Origin: an uncultured Tenacibaculum sp.
GTDB taxonomy: Bacteria > Bacteroidota > Bacteroidia > Flavobacteriales > Flavobacteriaceae
Length of the DNA: 64,000 nt
Direction of reading: 5' to 3'
NCBI GenBank assembly: GCA_947492185.1
Contig: CANLMR010000007.1
Coordinates: 1 to 64,000 of the forward strand
The position numbers were made by a program, and so were the translations under genes. How positions within the stretch are numbered: the stretch's first letter is position 1; each line of letters begins with the position of its first letter. The notes beneath the pieces were generated by a model that was not told the origin of the DNA, searched no databases, and was given only the letters and a program-made list of their open reading frames with translations. Positions 1 to 31,163 of this stretch are shown piece by piece.

Positions 1-717
1 GGAGATGATGATATTTATAGTTTTGTTATCTACAGATGTAAAGAAGATATTGGAGGTTATGTAACGGATGTAAATACAGGTAAACCCATTTTAGGAGCCA
101 CAGTTCGATTAATAGATGAGAAAGGAATACCAGTTAGTGAGCAAGTAACACAGGCAGATGGAAAATATGCCTTTAAAGATATTGACTGTGAGAACAACTT
201 TACCGTAAGCGCTTCTAAGGATGATTACCGAAATGATCAAAAACAAACAGCCACAGAGGATGTTAATAAGAAAGAAATCAAAACAGATTTAGCCTTAGAA
301 TCGTTAATTGTTGAGAGTCCAGAGTCAGCACAGATTGTTATTAATCCGATATTCTTTGATTTTGATTTGTACAGCATTAGAAAAGATGCAGAATACGAGT
401 TAGAGCACATTGTAACGGTAATGAACAACAATCCAGATATGGTTATTAAGATTGAATCTCATACAGATAGTCGAGGAACAAAGGACTACAATAGAAACTT
501 ATCTGATAATAGAGCAAAATCAACAAGAGATTATATCATCTCAAGAGGTATTGAAGCCAATCGAATACAAAGTGCGATTGGGTATGGAGAAGACCGATTG
601 TTAAACCACTGTGATGATACGAATCAAAGCAAGTGTTCAAAGGAACAACATCAGAAGAATAGAAGATCCTATTTCTACATTGTAAAAGGCGGAAAAAACG
701 TTTCAATTTCTAATTAA
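1..717 (+). CDS. OmpA-family envelope protein, 3' part (N-terminus outside window)
   Basis: The frame is open from base 1, so only the last 238 codons are seen; the ORF-track start at 367 is internal. The visible part begins with a sequence like the end of a PD40/WD40-like repeat (GDDDIYSF). A carboxypeptidase-regulatory-like beta domain follows (GYVTDVNTGKPILGATV), then a C-terminal OmpA domain with IFFDFDLYSIR, the peptidoglycan-binding stretch IESHTDSRGTKDYN and NRRSYFYIV. In Bacteroidota, proteins with this layout are outer-membrane-associated peptidoglycan anchors, often next to PorP/SprF genes of gliding and type IX secretion. The partner gene is not visible, so that link is inference. 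The OmpA call is firm; the exact role is not. Confidence 0.9.
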   Translation, partial: GDDDIYSFVIYRCKEDIGGYVTDVNTGKPILGATVRLIDEKGIPVSEQVTQADGKYAFKDIDCENNFTVSASKDDYRNDQKQTATEDVNKKEIKTDLALESLIVESPESAQIVINPIFFDFDLYSIRKDAEYELEHIVTVMNNNPDMVIKIESHTDSRGTKDYNRNLSDNRAKSTRDYIISRGIEANRIQSAIGYGEDRLLNHCDDTNQSKCSKEQHQKNRRSYFYIVKGGKNVSISN

Positions 718-978: not shown

Positions 979-1590
979 TTAAAATAAGTCATTTAAAGAA
1001 ATTACGACTTTTTTATAAACATTAAAACTCAAAATTTTTCCTTCGTTAGTTCTTTTAATAAAAATTAAACCAAGATACTCTAGATGATTTATAATATTCC
1101 ATATTGTAGTATTGTAAGTATCATTTTTAAAAACATATTTATAAATTAAATCTTTTCGTTTGTACTTAATTATGCCTTTTAAAACCTCTAATTCTATTGG
1201 GAGTAATTCTTTCCAAACTTTGTTTTGAATTGCGTACTCAGTATTATATTGGTTTACTTTGTAAAGTTTATCCTTTTCATTTAGAAGTACTTTATACTCA
1301 TTACAATTGTTACAAATTCTATTGAAATTATTTATAACATATTCAAAGTTTACTCTAGTTTTTACTGAATATTTCCTTACCTGATTACATTTTTTACATT
1401 TATCGAATATTATTTCACAATAAGAATAACTTTTAACTATTTGAATGAGAAATGTAATATCAATATTAAAATGTTTACTTATTTTCAAATTAGTATTACT
1501 AAACTCCCCATTATTATACTCCCAGTATTTTTTAATAATACTCGTAGTAATTTTATCAATACCATCAGTAATATGTATGTTGTACTCCAT
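979..1590 (-). CDS. Hypothetical protein with two CxxC zinc-ribbon-like knuckles
   Basis: I do not recognise this 203-residue protein. It has two CxxC pairs about 30 residues apart (CKKCNQ and CNNCNE), the spacing of a zinc ribbon, then a lysine- and isoleucine-rich C-terminal half that could be a winged helix. The longer start at 1623 in the ORF track is unlikely: a flavobacterial -7 box (TATATTTG on the minus strand) lies at 1611-1618, inside that extension, which favours the ATG at 1590. It is transcribed divergently from an XRE regulator beside a recombinase trio, so it may be cargo or a regulator of the mobile region. There is no signal peptide, so it is probably cytoplasmic. Confidence 0.55.
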   Translation of the reverse strand: MEYNIHITDGIDKITTSIIKKYWEYNNGEFSNTNLKISKHFNIDITFLIQIVKSYSYCEIIFDKCKKCNQVRKYSVKTRVNFEYVINNFNRICNNCNEYKVLLNEKDKLYKVNQYNTEYAIQNKVWKELLPIELEVLKGIIKYKRKDLIYKYVFKNDTYNTTIWNIINHLEYLGLIFIKRTNEGKILSFNVYKKVVISLNDLF

Positions 1591-1610
1591 TTTATTTTGA
1601 CGAGTATACA

Positions 1611-1618
1611 CAAATATA
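1611..1618 (-). promoter_or_regulatory. Candidate -7 promoter box for the zinc-ribbon gene
   Basis: The minus strand reads TATATTTG, matching the Bacteroidota -7 consensus TAnnTTTG, about 20 bases before the ATG at 1590. I see no TTG -33 element at the right distance, so this is a moderate call. Confidence 0.4.
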
Positions 1619-1667
1619 GGCATATTTGCTTATAGGTTTATATGCCTTAAAAAAGAATTTAGCCCTA

Positions 1668-1895
1668 ATGACAGTTAGGGACGATAAATACATTATAGAA
1701 TTTGGTAAAAACTTGAGGAAGTTAAGAAAGAGTAAAAATATAACTCAAGAAAAATTAGCATTTTCTATTGGAATTGAAATATCTCAAATAAGTAGAATAG
1801 AAAGAGGTATAGTTAATACATCTATTTCAACTGTTAAAGCCATTTCCGATTCGCTTAAAATAGATATCAAGGAACTTTTTGACTTCGAATACTAA
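1668..1895 (+). CDS. XRE-family helix-turn-helix regulator (small)
   Basis: A 75-residue protein made almost entirely of one HTH_3/XRE domain: FGKNLRKLRKSKNITQEKLA, then ISQISRIERG and a C-terminal DIKELFDF. Such Cro/CI-like proteins bind operator DNA as dimers and commonly control mobile elements or restriction systems. I prefer the ATG at 1668 to the TTG at 1626 because the XRE domain starts directly after it. It is divergent from the zinc-ribbon gene and about 200 bp upstream of the recombinase trio, so either could be its target (inference). Confidence 0.8.
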   Translation: MTVRDDKYIIEFGKNLRKLRKSKNITQEKLAFSIGIEISQISRIERGIVNTSISTVKAISDSLKIDIKELFDFEY

Positions 1896-2098: not shown

Positions 2099-3364
2099 AT
2101 GCAAAAGAAGATTTTAAAGTTTAATCTATTAATTATAAATGCGAAACAATACCTTCGAAATGAACTTCGTTATTCATTTTCTTCAGCTCAGACATATACT
2201 CTTGTTTGGAAACATTTAAGGAAGTTTATGTTTGAAAATGGTCATTATGATTACAATGATAGTATTGGTGAAAAATTTTTGAGGTTTAAGTTTGGTGAAA
2301 GTAAATGGGATAATTTAAATCGTAATCAGAGAACCTTTTTTAATGGAATTAAAATGATAGGTGATTTTCAAAAAACAAACAAAATAAATTTTCCAGAAAA
2401 AAAGTCTAAATATCCATTAAAATTTGAAGGAGATATAGGAACAATAATGTTAGAGTTTTTAAAAGACAAAGAAAAATTAAACCCTTCAAGATGCACATAT
2501 AATTCTTATCAACGTTCACTATTTACATTAAGTGCATACTGTAACCAAAAAGGTATTATTAAAATAGAGAATATTGATTTAGCTCTAATTTTGAATTTCA
2601 TTCAAGATGTAAAATTAGAAAAAACAGCAATATCAATATTGATAACGGCTTTAAGAAGTTTTATCAAATTCCTTTATGATAAGAATTATATAAACTATAA
2701 TTATTCAAAGAAAATACCAAGCTATAAACTTGTCAATCAACCTAAACTTCCTTCAAATTATTCTGAGGATGAAATTGAAAAGCTTATAAATTCTATCAAC
2801 AGAGCTAGTTCTATAGGGAAACGGAATTATGTAATTGTATTATTAGCGGCCAGATTAGGTTTAAGAGCATCAGATATAAGTAGACTAAGGTTTGAGCATT
2901 TACAATGGGAAACTAATAGGATTATTTTTCAACAACATAAAACTGGAAAACAGCTAATACTACCTTTGCTTCCGGATATAGGGAATGCTATAATTGATTA
3001 CTTAAAACATGGAAGACCAACCTCAGAGGAACCTTATATTTTACTTACAGCTAGAGCTCCTTACGGTAGATTTACAACCTCTAACGTTGTTACTCATGTA
3101 GTCCAAAGAGCTATGTGCAAAGCAGGAATAAATACGAGTGGTAGGAGATTTGGTCCTCATTCACTGAGGCATAGTCTTGGACTTCGTCTATTAGAGAAAA
3201 ATACTGTTTTACCAGTAATTTCAGAAGTGTTGGGTCATAAAGACACGAAAAGTACAAGATACTATCTAAGAATAGATTTAAAATCACTAACACAGTGTAT
3301 TCTTGATGTGCCAAAAGTAACAGAGGGGTTTTACAATCAGGAAGGAGGTAAATTCTATGGTTGA
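2099..3364 (+). CDS. Tyrosine recombinase, first of a recombinase trio (RitA-like)
   Basis: A 421-residue site-specific recombinase of the phage-integrase family. An N-terminal SAM-like core-binding region (about residues 110-200) precedes the catalytic domain. The active-site set looks complete: Arg256 in RLGLRASD, the Lys region HKTGK at about 280-284, HSLRH at 354-358, His380 in VLGHKD and the nucleophile Tyr388 or Tyr389. The gene overlaps the next recombinase by 8 bases, and a third follows with another overlap. Three consecutive overlapping tyrosine recombinases of about 420, 325 and 340 residues are the hallmark of RIT elements. Tn554-like elements (tnpA/tnpB/tnpC) are the alternative, but in those the third protein is not an integrase. 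No truncation is seen, so the gene looks functional. Confidence 0.9.
   Translation: MQKKILKFNLLIINAKQYLRNELRYSFSSAQTYTLVWKHLRKFMFENGHYDYNDSIGEKFLRFKFGESKWDNLNRNQRTFFNGIKMIGDFQKTNKINFPEKKSKYPLKFEGDIGTIMLEFLKDKEKLNPSRCTYNSYQRSLFTLSAYCNQKGIIKIENIDLALILNFIQDVKLEKTAISILITALRSFIKFLYDKNYINYNYSKKIPSYKLVNQPKLPSNYSEDEIEKLINSINRASSIGKRNYVIVLLAARLGLRASDISRLRFEHLQWETNRIIFQQHKTGKQLILPLLPDIGNAIIDYLKHGRPTSEEPYILLTARAPYGRFTTSNVVTHVVQRAMCKAGINTSGRRFGPHSLRHSLGLRLLEKNTVLPVISEVLGHKDTKSTRYYLRIDLKSLTQCILDVPKVTEGFYNQEGGKFYG
3342..3349 (+). promoter_or_regulatory. Strong Shine-Dalgarno sequence for the second recombinase
   Basis: AAGGAGGT ends 7 bases before the ATG at 3357, inside the last codons of the first recombinase. 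Flavobacterial genes seldom use such a sequence and most genes in this window have none. It sets the start of the second recombinase and hints that the trio came from elsewhere, although its bases also encode QEGG of the upstream protein. Confidence 0.65.
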
Positions 3365-4334
3365 AAATTTTCATAGCGTATACGCTGAGTATTTGAAACA
3401 GTTTATAAGTTTTAAGCGCAAGCTTGGTTTCAAGTTTAAAGCTGAAGCCTTTCTTTTAAAAAAAATTGATGAGGCTGCTTTAGAAACTAATCAATCATCC
3501 TCAGGTATAACTAAATCATTCGCAGATATAATTAGGAAGAAAAAACCAAATGAAGGATGGCAATATCGACAACGCAGAATATCTGTTTTAGCGATGTTTT
3601 CCTCTTACCTTAATGATATTGGAATAGATTCTTACATACCCAAAGTTCCTCCCTGTAAAAATAAGGAATATCTACCATACATCTTTTCTCAAAATGAAAT
3701 TAATACAATATTTAATGAATGTGATCAGTATAAATTAATAAGAAGACATCCATATAATAATTTATTTATTATGCCTGCATTGCTTAGGTTACTATACGCA
3801 ACAGGAATAAGATTTGGAGAAGCTATAAACTTAAAAGATGCAGACGTTGATCTCGAAGATAATTATTTATTAATTAAAGATTCAAAAAATGGAAAAGAAA
3901 GAATTATTCCAATTTCTTATTCTTTATCAGACGTATTAAAAGAGTATTTATGGTTTAGAAATTATCTTCCTAAAAACAAAAACAACTATTTTTTTATCGG
4001 TGTAAGTGGAAATAAATGTAACCAAAGTATAAGAGTTTGGTTCAAAAAAATTCTTGAGCGTTCAAATATTCAATATTTAGGGAAAAATAAAGGGCCCAGA
4101 GTTCATGATTTAAGACATACTTTTGCCGTGAATTCTTTAGTTAAAATGGTAGAAGCTGGTTTAGATTTGTATGTTTCATTACCTATATTATCTACTTATT
4201 TAGGCCATCAATCTATTAAATCTACAAATAAATATGTAAGATTAACTTCTATGTTATTTCCAGATTTAATGAATGATATTGATTATTCCTTAATTGATGT
4301 GTTTCCTAAATTCAAAAATTATGAACCCAACTGA
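3357..4334 (+). CDS. Tyrosine recombinase, second of the trio (RitB-like)
   Basis: A 325-residue phage-integrase-family recombinase. Catalytic residues are visible: Arg152 in YATGIRFGE, HDLRH at 250-254, His284 in YLGHQS and Tyr293 in NKYVRL. It starts within the end of the preceding recombinase (8-base overlap, good Shine-Dalgarno) and overlaps the next one by 14 bases, so the three are almost certainly cotranscribed and translationally coupled. In RIT elements the second recombinase is also the shortest, as here. The role (cleavage, or an accessory partner in excision and insertion of the element) is inferred from the family. Confidence 0.9.
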   Translation: MVENFHSVYAEYLKQFISFKRKLGFKFKAEAFLLKKIDEAALETNQSSSGITKSFADIIRKKKPNEGWQYRQRRISVLAMFSSYLNDIGIDSYIPKVPPCKNKEYLPYIFSQNEINTIFNECDQYKLIRRHPYNNLFIMPALLRLLYATGIRFGEAINLKDADVDLEDNYLLIKDSKNGKERIIPISYSLSDVLKEYLWFRNYLPKNKNNYFFIGVSGNKCNQSIRVWFKKILERSNIQYLGKNKGPRVHDLRHTFAVNSLVKMVEAGLDLYVSLPILSTYLGHQSIKSTNKYVRLTSMLFPDLMNDIDYSLIDVFPKFKNYEPN

Positions 4335-5334
4335 TTTCTCTAAATACATTTCAGACTTTCTGTCAAACTATTTAACTGATGAGAGAGGAGCATCTATTAA
4401 TACTATTAAAGCGTATAGAGATACTTTTGTTTTATTACTGCACTTTATGGAGAAAGAGAGAAAAATAAAACTTAATAAATTAAAAATTAAAGATATAAAT
4501 AAAGATACCATAACATCCTTTTTAAATTGGCTAGAGTATAATAGGAGTTGTAGTATTTCAACTCGTAATTCACGTTTAGCTGCAATTCATTCATTTTATA
4601 AGTTTTTGCAGTACAGAGAGTTGGGGCATATTTATGATTGCCAAAAAATTCTTTCCATTAAGCAAAAAAGAAGTCCTCAGCTTATAATGTCTTATTTAAC
4701 AATTGAGGGGATTAAGTCATTATTAAAACAGCCCGATCTAAATACCAAAAAAGGAAGAAGAGATTTAGCTTTATTATCTTTAATGTATGATACTGGAGCA
4801 AGAGTTCAAGAAATTATTGACCTTACACCATCTATGATTAATCTTAATAATCCTCCTACTATAAAAATTATTGGTAAAGGAAATAAGTCAAGATTAGTTC
4901 CAATGATTAATGCACAAACTCTACATCTTAAAAACTATATATTAGAACATCAATTGGATTCTCCTGTTAATTTATTACATCCGCTATTTACTAATAATAG
5001 AGGAGAAAAGTTAACTAGATCAGGTGTGAATTATATATTAAAGAAATATTTAACCAAAGCAAGAAGTATAGAGCCATCAATAATACCCGAAAATATATCT
5101 TGTCATTCAATTAGACATTCAAAAGCAATGCATTTATTGCAGTCAGGTGTTAATTTAGTTTATATCAGAGATATATTGGGTCATGTATCTATACAAACAA
5201 CCGAAATTTACGCAAGAGCAGATTCTAAGTTTAAACGTTTAGCTTTAGAAAAAGCATACTCTAAATTAATACCAGAGGAAGAACCGTTATGGCATAAAAA
5301 TAAAAATTTAATAACTTGGTTGAAAAAATTCTAA
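4321..5334 (+). CDS. Tyrosine recombinase, third of the trio (RitC-like)
   Basis: A 337-residue XerC/D-like recombinase. The N-terminal core-binding domain (residues 5-100) has the usual SxNTIKAYRDT pattern. Catalytic residues are Arg161 in YDTGARVQE, Lys around 186 in IIGKGNKS, HSIRH at 262-266, His288 in ILGHVS and Tyr297 in TEIYAR. I place the start at the ATG at 4321 because the domain begins there; the track start at 4294 only adds out-of-family residues. It overlaps the second gene by 14 bases. Just behind its stop is an array of short inverted repeats that is probably the end of the element. Confidence 0.9.
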   Translation: MNPTDFSKYISDFLSNYLTDERGASINTIKAYRDTFVLLLHFMEKERKIKLNKLKIKDINKDTITSFLNWLEYNRSCSISTRNSRLAAIHSFYKFLQYRELGHIYDCQKILSIKQKRSPQLIMSYLTIEGIKSLLKQPDLNTKKGRRDLALLSLMYDTGARVQEIIDLTPSMINLNNPPTIKIIGKGNKSRLVPMINAQTLHLKNYILEHQLDSPVNLLHPLFTNNRGEKLTRSGVNYILKKYLTKARSIEPSIIPENISCHSIRHSKAMHLLQSGVNLVYIRDILGHVSIQTTEIYARADSKFKRLALEKAYSKLIPEEEPLWHKNKNLITWLKKF

Positions 5335-5340
5335 TAATTA

Positions 5341-5448
5341 TTATGTAAAGTAAATTTCAATAAAGTTTAGTAATAATCTTATATAGAGAAGTTTTATACA
5401 CATAATGTTTTACTTTGCATAATGAAATTTATGCAAAGCTTTACATAA
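5341..5448. repeat. Inverted-repeat array at the right end of the recombinase trio
   Basis: A 10-base motif occurs four times: TTATGTAAAG at 5341-5350, its variant CTTTGCATAA inverted at 5413-5422, TTATGCAAAG at 5429-5438 and CTTTACATAA inverted at 5439-5448. In addition TAAATTTCA at 5351-5359 is the exact reverse complement of 5423-5431. The arrangement looks like paired recombinase binding sites around a crossover core. This is direct observation; the attachment-site role is inference. Confidence 0.7.
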
Positions 5449-5449
5449 T

Positions 5450-5611
5450 TGTCATAACCATCCTTCTGGTAATGTTAAGCCAAGCAATTCAGATATTAAA
5501 CTTACCCAGCAAATAAAAGAAGCTGGTATAACACTTAACATAAAATTGCTTGATCATATAATAGTTAGTAAAAAGAAGTATTTTAGCTTTGCAGATGAAG
5601 CAATTTTATAA
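5450..5611 (+). pseudogene. radC: Truncated radC (C-terminal MPN/JAB domain fragment)
   Basis: Too fragmentary for the ORF track. Translation from 5450 gives CHNHPSGNVKPS, the metal-binding HxH and downstream serine region of RadC/JAMM proteins. It continues through LTQQIKEAG and LLDHIIVSKK to SFADEAIL and a TAA at 5609-5611, the normal RadC C-terminus. Homology stops abruptly on the 5' side at the last inverted repeat of the recombinase element. The N-terminal half of radC is not seen to the left of the trio, so the gene is broken and probably also lost sequence. The stop lies 9 bases before the next gene, suggesting an old radC-deacetylase gene pair. Confidence 0.85.
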
Positions 5612-7830: not shown

Positions 7831-9081
7831 TAAATACTTCTTATATAAAACGTAAAAAGCAACAACAGAAGCTAATCCTGTTAACCACATTAAACAAGCT
7901 GAAGTTATTGCAGCGCCTTTAACACCAAATAGAGGAATTAACGTGAGGTTAGTAAAATAATTAATTACAATAGCAGCTGAGGTAATGTAAAAGTTAACTT
8001 TAACTTGACCTATTGAAGATAAAAGGTTGCCATACAAACCTCGTAAAATTAAAATACCACAAATCCCAAATATTAGAATGATAAAGCTATCAAAGTATTG
8101 CGTAAATGTTGAATCAAATAAGTGTAGCACAAATTCTCCAAATAAGTAGAAAAAAGTACAGCTTAATAAGCTTATGATGGTAAACAAAATTAAATATCCT
8201 TTAGTGTATTTTTTAATAAAGCTAGTATCAGTTATTTTTTCCGTGAACGTAACAAAATCAGTAGTTATAAAAACACGAGGTAAGAATAATAAACTAAAGG
8301 GAATTAAAGAAATGTATCTATAAATTGTAATTTTTTCAGGATCTTTAAGTAAAGAACCAATCAGTAAAATATCTATTGAAAATAATAAAAGCGTTACGAC
8401 ATTAGATAAGCCACCAAATATTCCATATTTCCAAAAATCAAAATTAATAAGGTTAAGTTTTTTTGAGGTTGTATTAGAGGATAACAATAGTTTATAAAAA
8501 AATAGTATTGTTATTAATGGAGTAATCACAAAAGAAATAGAATATCCAGTTGTTCCCCAAAAATGACTTAGCACAAAAACTGAGGATATTAAAATAATGT
8601 TATATGTCACTTCTAATATAGCTAGCTTTTTATTTCGATGTTCTAAACGTACTCTAACTTTAATTATTTCAAAAAGAAATGCGGGAATAAAAACCAAAGA
8701 AAGTATGTAGAGGTAAAACTTTACTTCTTTAATTTCAAAATGATAAACATAACTAAATAAAATTATGCCAATAGTTAAAAGCAAAGACGCTATAGTTCCT
8801 TTTTTTACTACATAGTTTAATAATTGCTGTTTTTCTTCATTAGTTTTAACTATAGCTCCGTACCGAATATAACTTTGATGTAATCCAAAACCTACAAGCG
8901 GTGTTAGAAAAACTACAAAATTCCACGCATATAAAACATTTCCTAATGGTTTAGATGGAATCAATTGTAGTGCAATCCATGAGGCGAGAAATGATAATAC
9001 TCTAGAAATTACTGTAGCTAAGAATACATAACTTCCTGCTCGTTTTATAAAATCTGATATGTAGTTTATTAGCGAATTCAA
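7810..9081 (-). CDS. Oligosaccharide flippase / polysaccharide export protein (MATE-like, Wzx type)
   Basis: A 423-residue integral membrane protein with roughly 12 hydrophobic segments. It opens with AGSYVFLATVISRVLSFLAS, typical of the polysaccharide_synt/MVF-MATE superfamily. Such proteins flip lipid-linked oligosaccharides across the inner membrane. It starts with TTG immediately after the TAA of the upstream glycosyltransferase (no intergenic base), so the two are translationally coupled; no internal Met lies near the N-terminus. The substrate is unknown, and the adjacent GT4 and deacetylase suggest a capsule or O-antigen-like glycan. Confidence 0.85.
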   Translation of the reverse strand: MNSLINYISDFIKRAGSYVFLATVISRVLSFLASWIALQLIPSKPLGNVLYAWNFVVFLTPLVGFGLHQSYIRYGAIVKTNEEKQQLLNYVVKKGTIASLLLTIGIILFSYVYHFEIKEVKFYLYILSLVFIPAFLFEIIKVRVRLEHRNKKLAILEVTYNIILISSVFVLSHFWGTTGYSISFVITPLITILFFYKLLLSSNTTSKKLNLINFDFWKYGIFGGLSNVVTLLLFSIDILLIGSLLKDPEKITIYRYISLIPFSLLFLPRVFITTDFVTFTEKITDTSFIKKYTKGYLILFTIISLLSCTFFYLFGEFVLHLFDSTFTQYFDSFIILIFGICGILILRGLYGNLLSSIGQVKVNFYITSAAIVINYFTNLTLIPLFGVKGAAITSACLMWLTGLASVVAFYVLYKKYLLSLKES

Positions 9082-11650: not shown

Positions 11651-12736
11651 CTAACTTCTATATTGTGTAGGAGTTACGCCAGTATGTTTTTTAAAAGCAT
11701 TATAAAAAGTAGATTTAGAATTGAAACCAGATTCTAGGGCAATAGATGTGATTGTGTATTGGTTATAGTCATCATTTTGTAATAAATCTTTAGAATATTC
11801 TATTCGATATTCATTAATCAATTGATTGAAGTTTTTTGAGCTTTGCTCATTAATCAATTTAGAAAGTTGACTTGTACTTACCCTAAGTTCATTTGCCAAA
11901 GTTTCTAAACTTAAAAGGTTATCTAAAAATCTACGATTATTAATAATGTAATCTTCAATGTCTTTAAATTTTTTTAAGTTATTACTTTGTTGAGATGTTA
12001 TTTTTTTTAGGTTTCGTTCACGAATTGATTTTCGTTCTTTAACCTGACGTAACATGTATACTAATTCATAACCTAACCAATAGATTAAAATTGTAGTCAT
12101 AATACGTAAAGGATAAAAAAAGACAATAAAGTTTTGAAAGTTCAGTTGGAATTTTACACCCACAGCGAGTGCCCAAAAAGCATAGGATATTAATGCAAGA
12201 AATACAAAGGTATTTAACCATTGTAAACTATCATAACTTAAAATACTTTTGAATAAGTTCTTTTTAAACTTAATAATTCTAAAAGAATAGAAGAAAATAC
12301 TTATAGAAACTATGAAACTTATTAATTCTTCTACAGCAGTATATTTCTCATAAAACAATTCATATTCAGTTGTTGTAGAAGTATCTTTAATAAACGAAAA
12401 TGATACTACTTGAAAAATTATACTGATAATAAATACAGGAAAAACAATTTTTAAAACATTAAAAAAATGGTTTTCTATTTTTAAGTAATTTATCAGGAAA
12501 GAGTAGAAGAGTGGTGCAATTAAAAAATGCCAAGGTATCTGAATATAATCTAAAACTATAAATCCTTCAGCTAAAAGCCACGATTGTAAATTATTCAAGG
12601 CGATTACTAGAATCATTAGGTTTAAGAACAAGGTATTTCTATTTAAACCCGTTTTTTTAAATAGAAAAAAACTAAATACAAAACCGTGAATAGCACTTAC
12701 AATTAAGAATAAATTAAAAAACTCGGAAACTTGCAA
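11651..12736 (-). CDS. Membrane-anchored AraC-family transcriptional regulator
   Basis: A 361-residue protein. The first ~230 residues contain about seven hydrophobic segments (for example FFNLFLIVSAIHGFVFSFFL, FLNLMILVIALNN, IYWLGYELVYML). The last ~100 residues are an AraC/XylS DNA-binding domain with two HTH motifs: SLETLANELRVSTSQLSKLIN and ITSIALESGFNSKSTFYNAFKKHTGVTPTQYR. This layout is common in flavobacteria and implies a membrane sensor that binds DNA directly from the membrane. The adjacent barrel genes are candidate targets. The membrane-plus-HTH layout is seen; the ligand is unknown. Confidence 0.9.
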   Translation of the reverse strand: MQVSEFFNLFLIVSAIHGFVFSFFLFKKTGLNRNTLFLNLMILVIALNNLQSWLLAEGFIVLDYIQIPWHFLIAPLFYSFLINYLKIENHFFNVLKIVFPVFIISIIFQVVSFSFIKDTSTTTEYELFYEKYTAVEELISFIVSISIFFYSFRIIKFKKNLFKSILSYDSLQWLNTFVFLALISYAFWALAVGVKFQLNFQNFIVFFYPLRIMTTILIYWLGYELVYMLRQVKERKSIRERNLKKITSQQSNNLKKFKDIEDYIINNRRFLDNLLSLETLANELRVSTSQLSKLINEQSSKNFNQLINEYRIEYSKDLLQNDDYNQYTITSIALESGFNSKSTFYNAFKKHTGVTPTQYRS

Positions 12737-29636: not shown

Positions 29637-31163
29637 TTAGTTTTGGGCTCCAGGAGAGTTGAAATCACTCTCGAAAGCTGGAACAGGCCAGTATTCTAAA
29701 TATCCATAATTAATTGTTGCATTAGTGTTTAATACACCAGCCGCATCTAATACATGTGCACCAGTTCTTGAACCAGCAGCAACACCATATCTTCTTGCAT
29801 CATAAAAAGAAAGATTTCTAAAGATTAATGCTAATCTTCTTTCTTTACGAACTTCTTCCCAAGCATCAGCTTGTGATAATCCAGTTCCTACAGTGGCAGC
29901 TAATCCAGAACTTTGTAGAGTTCTAACAGCATCTAAGTGTGCTAAACCTCCATCAATATCTGAAGTTCTAATTTTTGCCTCAGCTAATAATAATTCATTC
30001 TCTTCATGAGTTCCTCCATAGTATAACTTAATTGCACCAGCAGTACCAGAAACAATTGGAGAAGGATCTTTCCAGAAGTAGTTACAACCATACTGAATAC
30101 CTCTACCTCTTGGGTTAGGGAATACAAATGGATCAAAATATGCATTTAAACGAGCATCTCCTGCGTTAATATCTTGAATTAAACGTGGACTTGGGAAATA
30201 CCAGAAACCAGATACAACACCAGGTAACCATCCGTTATCTAATACAGTAGCCTCTGATGTCATAGCGAAAGCTTCATTATTGTTGCTTACACCATTATTA
30301 CACCAAGTGATTACGTTAGTCCAATCAGCAGCAGTCATATCAGTAACTTTAGTACTGTATACTAAGTTACGAGCTCTTAAACTGTTGATGTTTTTAACTA
30401 ATCCAGCCATGTCAACTTTAGTACTAGCAATATCAATTTGCACTCCAGTGAAAATATCATTGAATGCAGTAGCATCTGCAACACCATTAACTAATGTAGT
30501 AAGCTCATCTAATAAACGATTAGATTCAGCAACTAAAGCAGCACTGTTAACAAAAGCATCGTTTGTCTCACCAGGAACGTCGTTAATAATACCTTGTTCA
30601 TACATTAATCCAATTCTATGGTAAGAATAAGCTTTCCACCATAAAGCCCAAGCTCTATATGCATCTTTTTGAGAATCGCTAGCACCAACAACGTTATCAA
30701 CATTTGTTAAAATAACATTTGCGTGATTGTTAGCTGCATAATATTCAGCCCACTCATATTGTGTTGGGTTGTCAGAACCTGCAGCTCTCGTGTTTCTAAC
30801 TGCAATTTCACCTGGTTGTGGTCCACCTGCAGGAGGTGTTACCGTGCTACCATCGTCCATTATAATAGAAGAAGTTTGGTTTACCCAACGTCCTCCGAAG
30901 TTACCCCAAGGCATAGTTAAGTTATCTCCCATTGTTTCATGGTAACCAGCTACAAACCAAAAGTTTACACTTCTAGCAGGGTCTGTAGTGTGAACATACA
31001 TACCTTTAGCATATCCTGTCATTCCAGTAGGCGTTGCTAAAGCAGCTAATGTAGGTTCGTTTAAGTTTACAGGCTCTATGTCAGTATCTAAAAGATTGTC
31101 TTGACAAGATGTTAATACTAATAAACCTAAAACGAATATCGATAATAATCTAAATTTTTTCAT
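29637..31163 (-). CDS. SusD/RagB-family lipoprotein (second pair)
   Basis: A 508-residue lipoprotein (LVLTSCQD lipobox). It shows the SusD pattern: WAEYYAANNHANVILTNVD and YRAWALWWKAYSYHRIGLMY in the helical half, and ENELLLAEAKIRTSDIDGGLAHLDAVR plus WEEVRKERRLALIFRNLSFYDARRYG near the C-terminus. It lies 19 bases after its SusC partner. It differs strongly from the first SusD in the ligand-binding middle, so the two systems probably import different substrates. Confidence 0.92.
   Translation of the reverse strand: MKKFRLLSIFVLGLLVLTSCQDNLLDTDIEPVNLNEPTLAALATPTGMTGYAKGMYVHTTDPARSVNFWFVAGYHETMGDNLTMPWGNFGGRWVNQTSSIIMDDGSTVTPPAGGPQPGEIAVRNTRAAGSDNPTQYEWAEYYAANNHANVILTNVDNVVGASDSQKDAYRAWALWWKAYSYHRIGLMYEQGIINDVPGETNDAFVNSAALVAESNRLLDELTTLVNGVADATAFNDIFTGVQIDIASTKVDMAGLVKNINSLRARNLVYSTKVTDMTAADWTNVITWCNNGVSNNNEAFAMTSEATVLDNGWLPGVVSGFWYFPSPRLIQDINAGDARLNAYFDPFVFPNPRGRGIQYGCNYFWKDPSPIVSGTAGAIKLYYGGTHEENELLLAEAKIRTSDIDGGLAHLDAVRTLQSSGLAATVGTGLSQADAWEEVRKERRLALIFRNLSFYDARRYGVAAGSRTGAHVLDAAGVLNTNATINYGYLEYWPVPAFESDFNSPGAQN

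Follow-up and report, generated by a model that had tools for sequence, protein, structure and literature searches.

The recombinase trio

The window analysed here (64,000 nt of an uncultured Tenacibaculum sp., at the start of contig C7) contains three co-directed tyrosine recombinase genes on the forward strand: ritA (2099-3364, 421 aa), ritB (3357-4334, 325 aa) and ritC (4321-5334, 337 aa from the ATG, or 346 aa from an alternative TTG start 27 nt upstream). ritA and ritB overlap by 8 nt and ritB and ritC by 14 nt, in agreement with an earlier sequence-only reading of this DNA, which had also described an intact R...HxxR...H...Y active site in each protein. All three products match PF00589 in Pfam (each E ≤ 3.2e-26), and six-way alignments of related trios bear out the active sites, as R256, H354xxR357, H380 and Y388/389 of RitA, R152, H250xxR253, H284 and Y293 of RitB, and R161, H262xxR265, H288 and Y297 of RitC are invariant. 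AlphaFold models, which were built from six sequences and are reliable in the N-terminal halves only, place two N-terminal core-binding four-helix bundles in RitA (residues 2-93 and 111-194), with block pLDDT values mostly of 77-90, down to 60-72 across residues 161-194. For RitC, a C-terminal helix (330-336) is predicted with low confidence. The trio is present in one copy in this genome. Promoter scans scored no higher than those of shuffled sequence, and a terminator was looked for without success.

Ends of the element and the radC target

The sequence-only reading had placed the element at 2099-5334. These coordinates hold for the trio genes, while the element as a whole runs on to 5454 at its right end and has its left end on another contig, C13. 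The right end (5340-5454) consists of a repeat of about 100 bp, a palindrome and a core, and abuts the 3' part of radC. The right terminal inverted repeat (5340-5425) has its counterpart at C13:30985-31070, in inverted orientation and beside the 5' part of radC; the two copies are 92% identical over 86 nt and agree in 89 of 102 columns of a longer alignment. These are the only two copies in the genome, inverted to each other and adjoining both halves of radC, and a search for a third gave none (next best E 0.008). As read from the sequence, an inner 6-bp spacer TGAAAT (5423-5428) separates two inverted half-sites. It is followed by a 20-bp palindrome, TTATGCAAAGCTTTACATAA (5429-5448), which is made up of two half-sites head to head and is the same in four related loci (L039, L032, L034 and L036). 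The 6-bp core TTGTCA (5449-5454) recurs on C13, at the left junction. Exact copies of the half-site TTATGYAAAG number four in the 64-kb window, against an expectation of 0.85, and every one of them falls within 5341-5448.

The host radC 3' part (5450-5611, forward strand; PF04002, E 3e-21) begins at the CxHNHPSG codons and supplies about 51-53 residues of the RadC C-terminus, and the 5' part lies on C13, up to about position 30,988. When the host left flank, the core and the host right flank are joined, a single RadC frame of 231 residues results. No further or intact radC was found in this genome, so the host probably lives without RadC. Empty sites, which the sequence-only reading had proposed to look for, are provided by 30 other Tenacibaculum genomes in which radC is uninterrupted; within the 1.5 kb of flank examined, a deacetylase gene neighbours radC in 29 of these 30 loci and trkA in 22. 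All the empty sites come from these other genomes, and neither an empty site nor an excised circle was seen for the same species.

At all left junctions radC is cut after (A/C)-H, and at all right junctions it resumes at NHPSG. The left and right cores, as read from the junctions, are TTGTCA/TTGTCA in this genome, ATGTCA/ATGTCA in T. skagerrakense, GGCGCA/GGTGCA in L032 and AGCTCA/CGCTCA in L036. Wherever a right junction is present (five loci), the palindrome is located towards the 3' part of radC, even in L036, in which the trio is oriented opposite to radC; this constant position could be explained by a symmetrical joined end. A search with the right-junction pattern matched no viral contig. 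Among 281 Flavobacteriaceae it gave exact matches in this genome and in G662, and one-mismatch matches in G490 and G476. The G662 match falls in an uninterrupted coding region without radC and was rejected as chance, as was that in G490.

Genes between the ends

A gene for a Cro/C1-type HTH regulator (1668-1895, forward strand; PF01381, E 6e-14) lies upstream of ritA; its start may be the ATG at 1668 or the TTG at 1626. Divergent from it is ORF214 (979-1623, reverse strand), encoding a hypothetical protein with CxxC pairs that gave no match in Pfam, NCBIfam or PADLOC. The ORF214 and HTH proteins are 96% and 97% identical, respectively, to those of T. skagerrakense at the amino acid level. The pair may regulate the element. 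It occupies 979-1895, between the cargo and the trio, and is absent from the trio-only element L032.

Positions 1-717 (forward strand) hold the 3' part of a PorE-like gene of the OmpA family (Pfam OmpA), the last gene of an adhesin/PorP-SprF/OmpA cluster. Reading C13 from the left end of the element, we found an open frame of 4,178 codons (about 4,170 aa from the first ATG, 8 codons in) and then a PorP/SprF gene, and contig C7 starts inside the OmpA gene that comes after PorP/SprF. The 5' part of the OmpA gene falls in the assembly gap. The product of about 4,170 aa is an adhesin-like repeat protein whose C-terminus resembles by eye a gliding/T9SS sorting domain; a profile search of this C-terminus gave no sorting-domain model. 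In T. skagerrakense (locus L039, genome G035), a single contig (C2, NZ_SLXM01000002.1) carries the 3' part of the adhesin gene, PorP/SprF, OmpA, ORF214, the HTH gene, ritABC, the right end and the radC 3' part, with a full-length OmpA gene (L039:7533-9494) contiguous with the trio. By alignment to T. skagerrakense, about 1.76 kb are missing between C13 and C7, and the element would therefore measure about 13.4 + 1.8 + 5.4 = 20.6 kb. Its continuity across the gap is suggested by synteny and by the paired ends. The present genome has a second sequence, at C3:254134-255593, that matches a portion of the OmpA cargo gene with 85% identity, and this near-copy may explain the contig break between C13 and C7.

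We conclude that the trio is very probably the recombinase end of a RIT element of about 20.6 kb inserted in the chromosomal radC of Tenacibaculum, and that the large surface-adhesion genes are probably its cargo. The sequence-only reading had recognised the trio, but neither the ends of the element, nor radC as its target, nor the cargo. Since RITs are described at about 3.5 kb (PMC3414803), exactly as seen in L032, one might instead regard the trio as such a short RIT, the adhesin cluster as genes trapped by two insertions or a rearrangement rather than as cargo, and the repeat on C13 as the leftover end of another RIT copy. The whole element is on one contig in neither Tenacibaculum genome, and the locus L031 (see below) demonstrates that RIT ends can be rearranged. 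Against this, however, no left-end-like sequence was found in the stretch from the OmpA gene to ritA, the repeat has just two copies in the genome, and a single radC split is flanked cleanly by both ends. The layout in T. skagerrakense is moreover identical, and L036 is a complete 12.2-kb unit on one contig. We consider the short-element explanation distinctly improbable.

Relationship to RIT elements and other families

By every sequence test available, the element belongs to the RIT elements, as the sequence-only reading had proposed from the gene architecture. RitA, RitB and RitC are 29%, 32% and 45% identical to the trio of Cupriavidus pHG1 (L070), and in each case the positional counterpart is the best match (E 2e-48, 4e-58 and 3e-91). 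The comparison with RIT families suggested in that reading thus gave a gene-for-gene match, and this order-specific homology, together with the two core-binding bundles in RitA and the structure of the ends, is the basis of the assignment. Two sequential core-binding domains in RitA and an extra C-terminal helix in RitC are RIT traits (PMC8138268), and so are terminal inverted repeats with an adjoining palindrome (PMC3414803, PMC10214605). The RITs of pHG1 and C. metallidurans CH34 share with the present element the gene order, the overlaps, three complete active sites, the two core-binding domains in RitA and the inverted ends with adjoining palindrome, and the pHG1 half-site TTTATGTAGAGT resembles the half-site found here. 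In other respects the element departs from the described RITs. It is about 20.6 kb long and carries cargo, whereas RITs are described as measuring about 3.5 kb and having an inverted repeat and a palindrome (PMC3414803); its repeats are about 100 bp as compared to the reported 28-34 bp; the second gene overlap (14 nt) exceeds the 4-8 nt reported for RITs (PMC3414803); and it resides, at a defined codon, in a chromosomal radC of Bacteroidota.

Tn554 targets radC. This target, the 6-bp core and the presence of cargo are common to Tn554 with its relatives and the element described here (6-bp core and cargo: PMC10214605), and GInts likewise combine three recombinase-fold genes at one end with variable cargo and site specificity (PMC5385486), so that a GInt or Tn554-type element might be considered in place of a RIT. 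GInts need ginD, have a GinC with an incomplete active site and are flanked by imperfect direct repeats of 10-17 nt (PMC5385486). Between 5334 and the right end, no ginD-like gene was found, the frames there encoding 20-33 aa only, and RitC keeps R161 whereas GinC lacks the first catalytic arginine; GInt membership was rejected on these grounds. The Tn554 set (TnpA, a much larger TnpB and a small TnpC) is set apart by its sizes from proteins of 421, 325 and 337 aa with no TnpB-sized protein and no small fourth gene after ritC. As all three active sites are complete and the best full-length plasmid matches of the trio are RIT trios, we regard a GInt or Tn554-type identity as hardly credible. 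The sequence-only reading had named best matches to Tn554-type or Xer genes, with no second copy in any genome, as the picture opposed to its own; in fact, the trio recurs at the same site in other genomes.

SEs have in common with the element the logic of a 6-bp footprint, cargo and the lack of mobilisation genes (PMC10214605), but they differ in their gene set (IntA, Tfp, IntB and Srap, with Tfp non-catalytic), which has no match here. Housekeeping XerC/XerD was rejected as well, the best scores being 118, 108 and 196 bits against NCBIfam cut-offs of 335, 220 and 330.

Related elements at the same radC codons

Single in this genome, the trio occurs at the same radC site in others, which answers the question of further copies raised in the sequence-only reading. 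Trios in a Flavobacterium, in flavobacterial mobile elements and in an Ignavibacteria bin are 40-67% identical to it and occupy the same radC codons, before His-Asn-His-Pro. Among the loci found as RitB relatives in genome contigs, these codons are used in L039, L031, L032, L034 and L036. L032 is an element of 3,518 bp with the intact trio only, inserted in a small radC with, by eye, a region of mobilisation-type genes downstream. A similar small radC is found in L031, where it adjoins an ssb gene, and L034, from an Ignavibacteriales bin, contains a radC 3' part. L036, from Flavobacterium microcysteis, is the 12.2-kb unit mentioned above, with cargo between its ends (L036:11950-19793); two of its proteins match PADLOC OloA (E 3e-36) and OloB (E 2e-116), which together make up the Olokun anti-phage system, so that the pair is Olokun-like, and the remaining cargo consists of two HNH-domain proteins, one of them below the Pfam cut-off, and one unknown protein.

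In a tree, the radC-inserted trios form one clade apart from six other trios (support 99). A rule by which every RIT would target radC was rejected, as the trio of G182 (L078:6600-10130), outside the radC clade, splits what is by eye an exbD-like gene. Its ends are arranged in the same way, with half-site TTATCCAAAG and palindrome TTATCACGAGTCGTGATAA, and here too the palindrome is at the 3' side. It thus seems that different genes serve as targets for other RIT groups, whose ends are organised alike.

Two further observations concern assembled contigs. In L031, a MAG, the trio lies between two different radC 5' parts (8269-8571 and 12044-12178) in inverted orientation, and neither junction has the palindrome, both being of the left type, a picture that recombination between two elements or two radC copies would give. 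L033/L034 and L077 (G977) are short contigs of about 3.5 kb that consist of a trio with its ends, which is what the assembly collapse of a multi-copy element should produce.

Divergence and proposed mechanism

Differences between this genome and T. skagerrakense at four-fold sites were low in ritA (0.06), ritB (0.08), ritC (0.15), the OmpA 3' part (0.14) and the adhesin 3' half (0.08), intermediate in the adhesin 5' half (0.30) and high in the host flanks (trkA 0.52, trkH 0.54, deacetylase 0.56, radC 5' part 0.67). The low synonymous divergence inside the element as compared to the host flanks lends indirect support to the suggestion of the sequence-only reading that the element may still move. 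One recent event that carried the element as a unit from one Tenacibaculum species to the other was considered and rejected, because the lowest values are confined to the right part and the adhesin 5' half is too diverged. The simplest reading of these differences is that the element was exchanged after the host split and its right part again later, with selection or repeat-associated gene conversion as possible additional influences.

Rather than being active at present, the element may alternatively be a dead remnant, once mobile and now fixed at radC by descent, which would fit its single copy and its matching location in T. skagerrakense, the nearest relative sampled. We judge this unlikely: the three frames and active sites are intact, both ends have exact half-sites, and the trio and the right part are far less diverged than the host flanks.

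For an active element, the following course of events can be proposed. RitA, RitB and RitC would most likely bind the half-sites TTATGYAAAG at both inverted ends, cut around the 6-bp core and circularise the element by joining its two ends. By strand exchange, the circle would then recombine with the 6-bp core in radC, just before the His-Asn-His-Pro-Ser-Gly active-site codons, and since the ends are nearly symmetrical, either orientation would be possible. The adhesin-like, PorP/SprF and OmpA genes between the ends would move with the element.

Target choice, ends and cargo of RITs have so far been poorly known. RIT elements as such are already known, and two proteobacterial ones lie in radC, in CMGI-2 of C. 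metallidurans CH34 and GI3 of B. petrii (PMC2864759; also PMC3414803). In a 2023 table, RIT target specificity is entered as not tested, and laboratory transposition has reportedly never been reproduced for any RIT (PMC10214605). Fixed codon-level targeting across groups and the carriage of cargo are both apparently new for RITs, although an earlier account of RIT cargo or of this target may exist, for example in the main RIT survey (Ricker et al. 2013, Plasmid). Cargo of about 9-17 kb (a T9SS-type adhesin cluster, an Olokun-like pair) would make RITs transposons and not bare insertion elements. We give about even weight to a wider proposal, namely that this RIT clade has become a family of cargo-carrying transposons whose members share one set of active-site codons as their point of entry into radC, both in chromosomes and in radC copies borne by mobile elements, the latter serving as vehicles, and that this family spreads modules for surface adhesion and anti-phage defence in Bacteroidota and Ignavibacteria. 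One site would be kept across such distant hosts because the codons targeted are the most conserved ones of radC. As the ends, core, empty site and target codons are known to the base and are seen again in independent insertions, integration is testable with a small reporter plasmid.

Occurrence in genome and virus collections

With a RitB profile (E ≤ 1e-40; only five candidates per genome scored), matches were obtained in 2 of 396 genomes of the phylum sample, 4 of 400 of the family sample and 3 of 395 of the class sample, each figure including the present genome. No RitB relatives were found in IMG/VR. A scan of the same collection for the palindrome returned four contigs, none of which has a trio or radC in the part examined. 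On IMG/VR contigs classed as viral, the same 20-bp palindrome with half-sites is located outside radC at L093:9469-9488 and L094:4652-4671.
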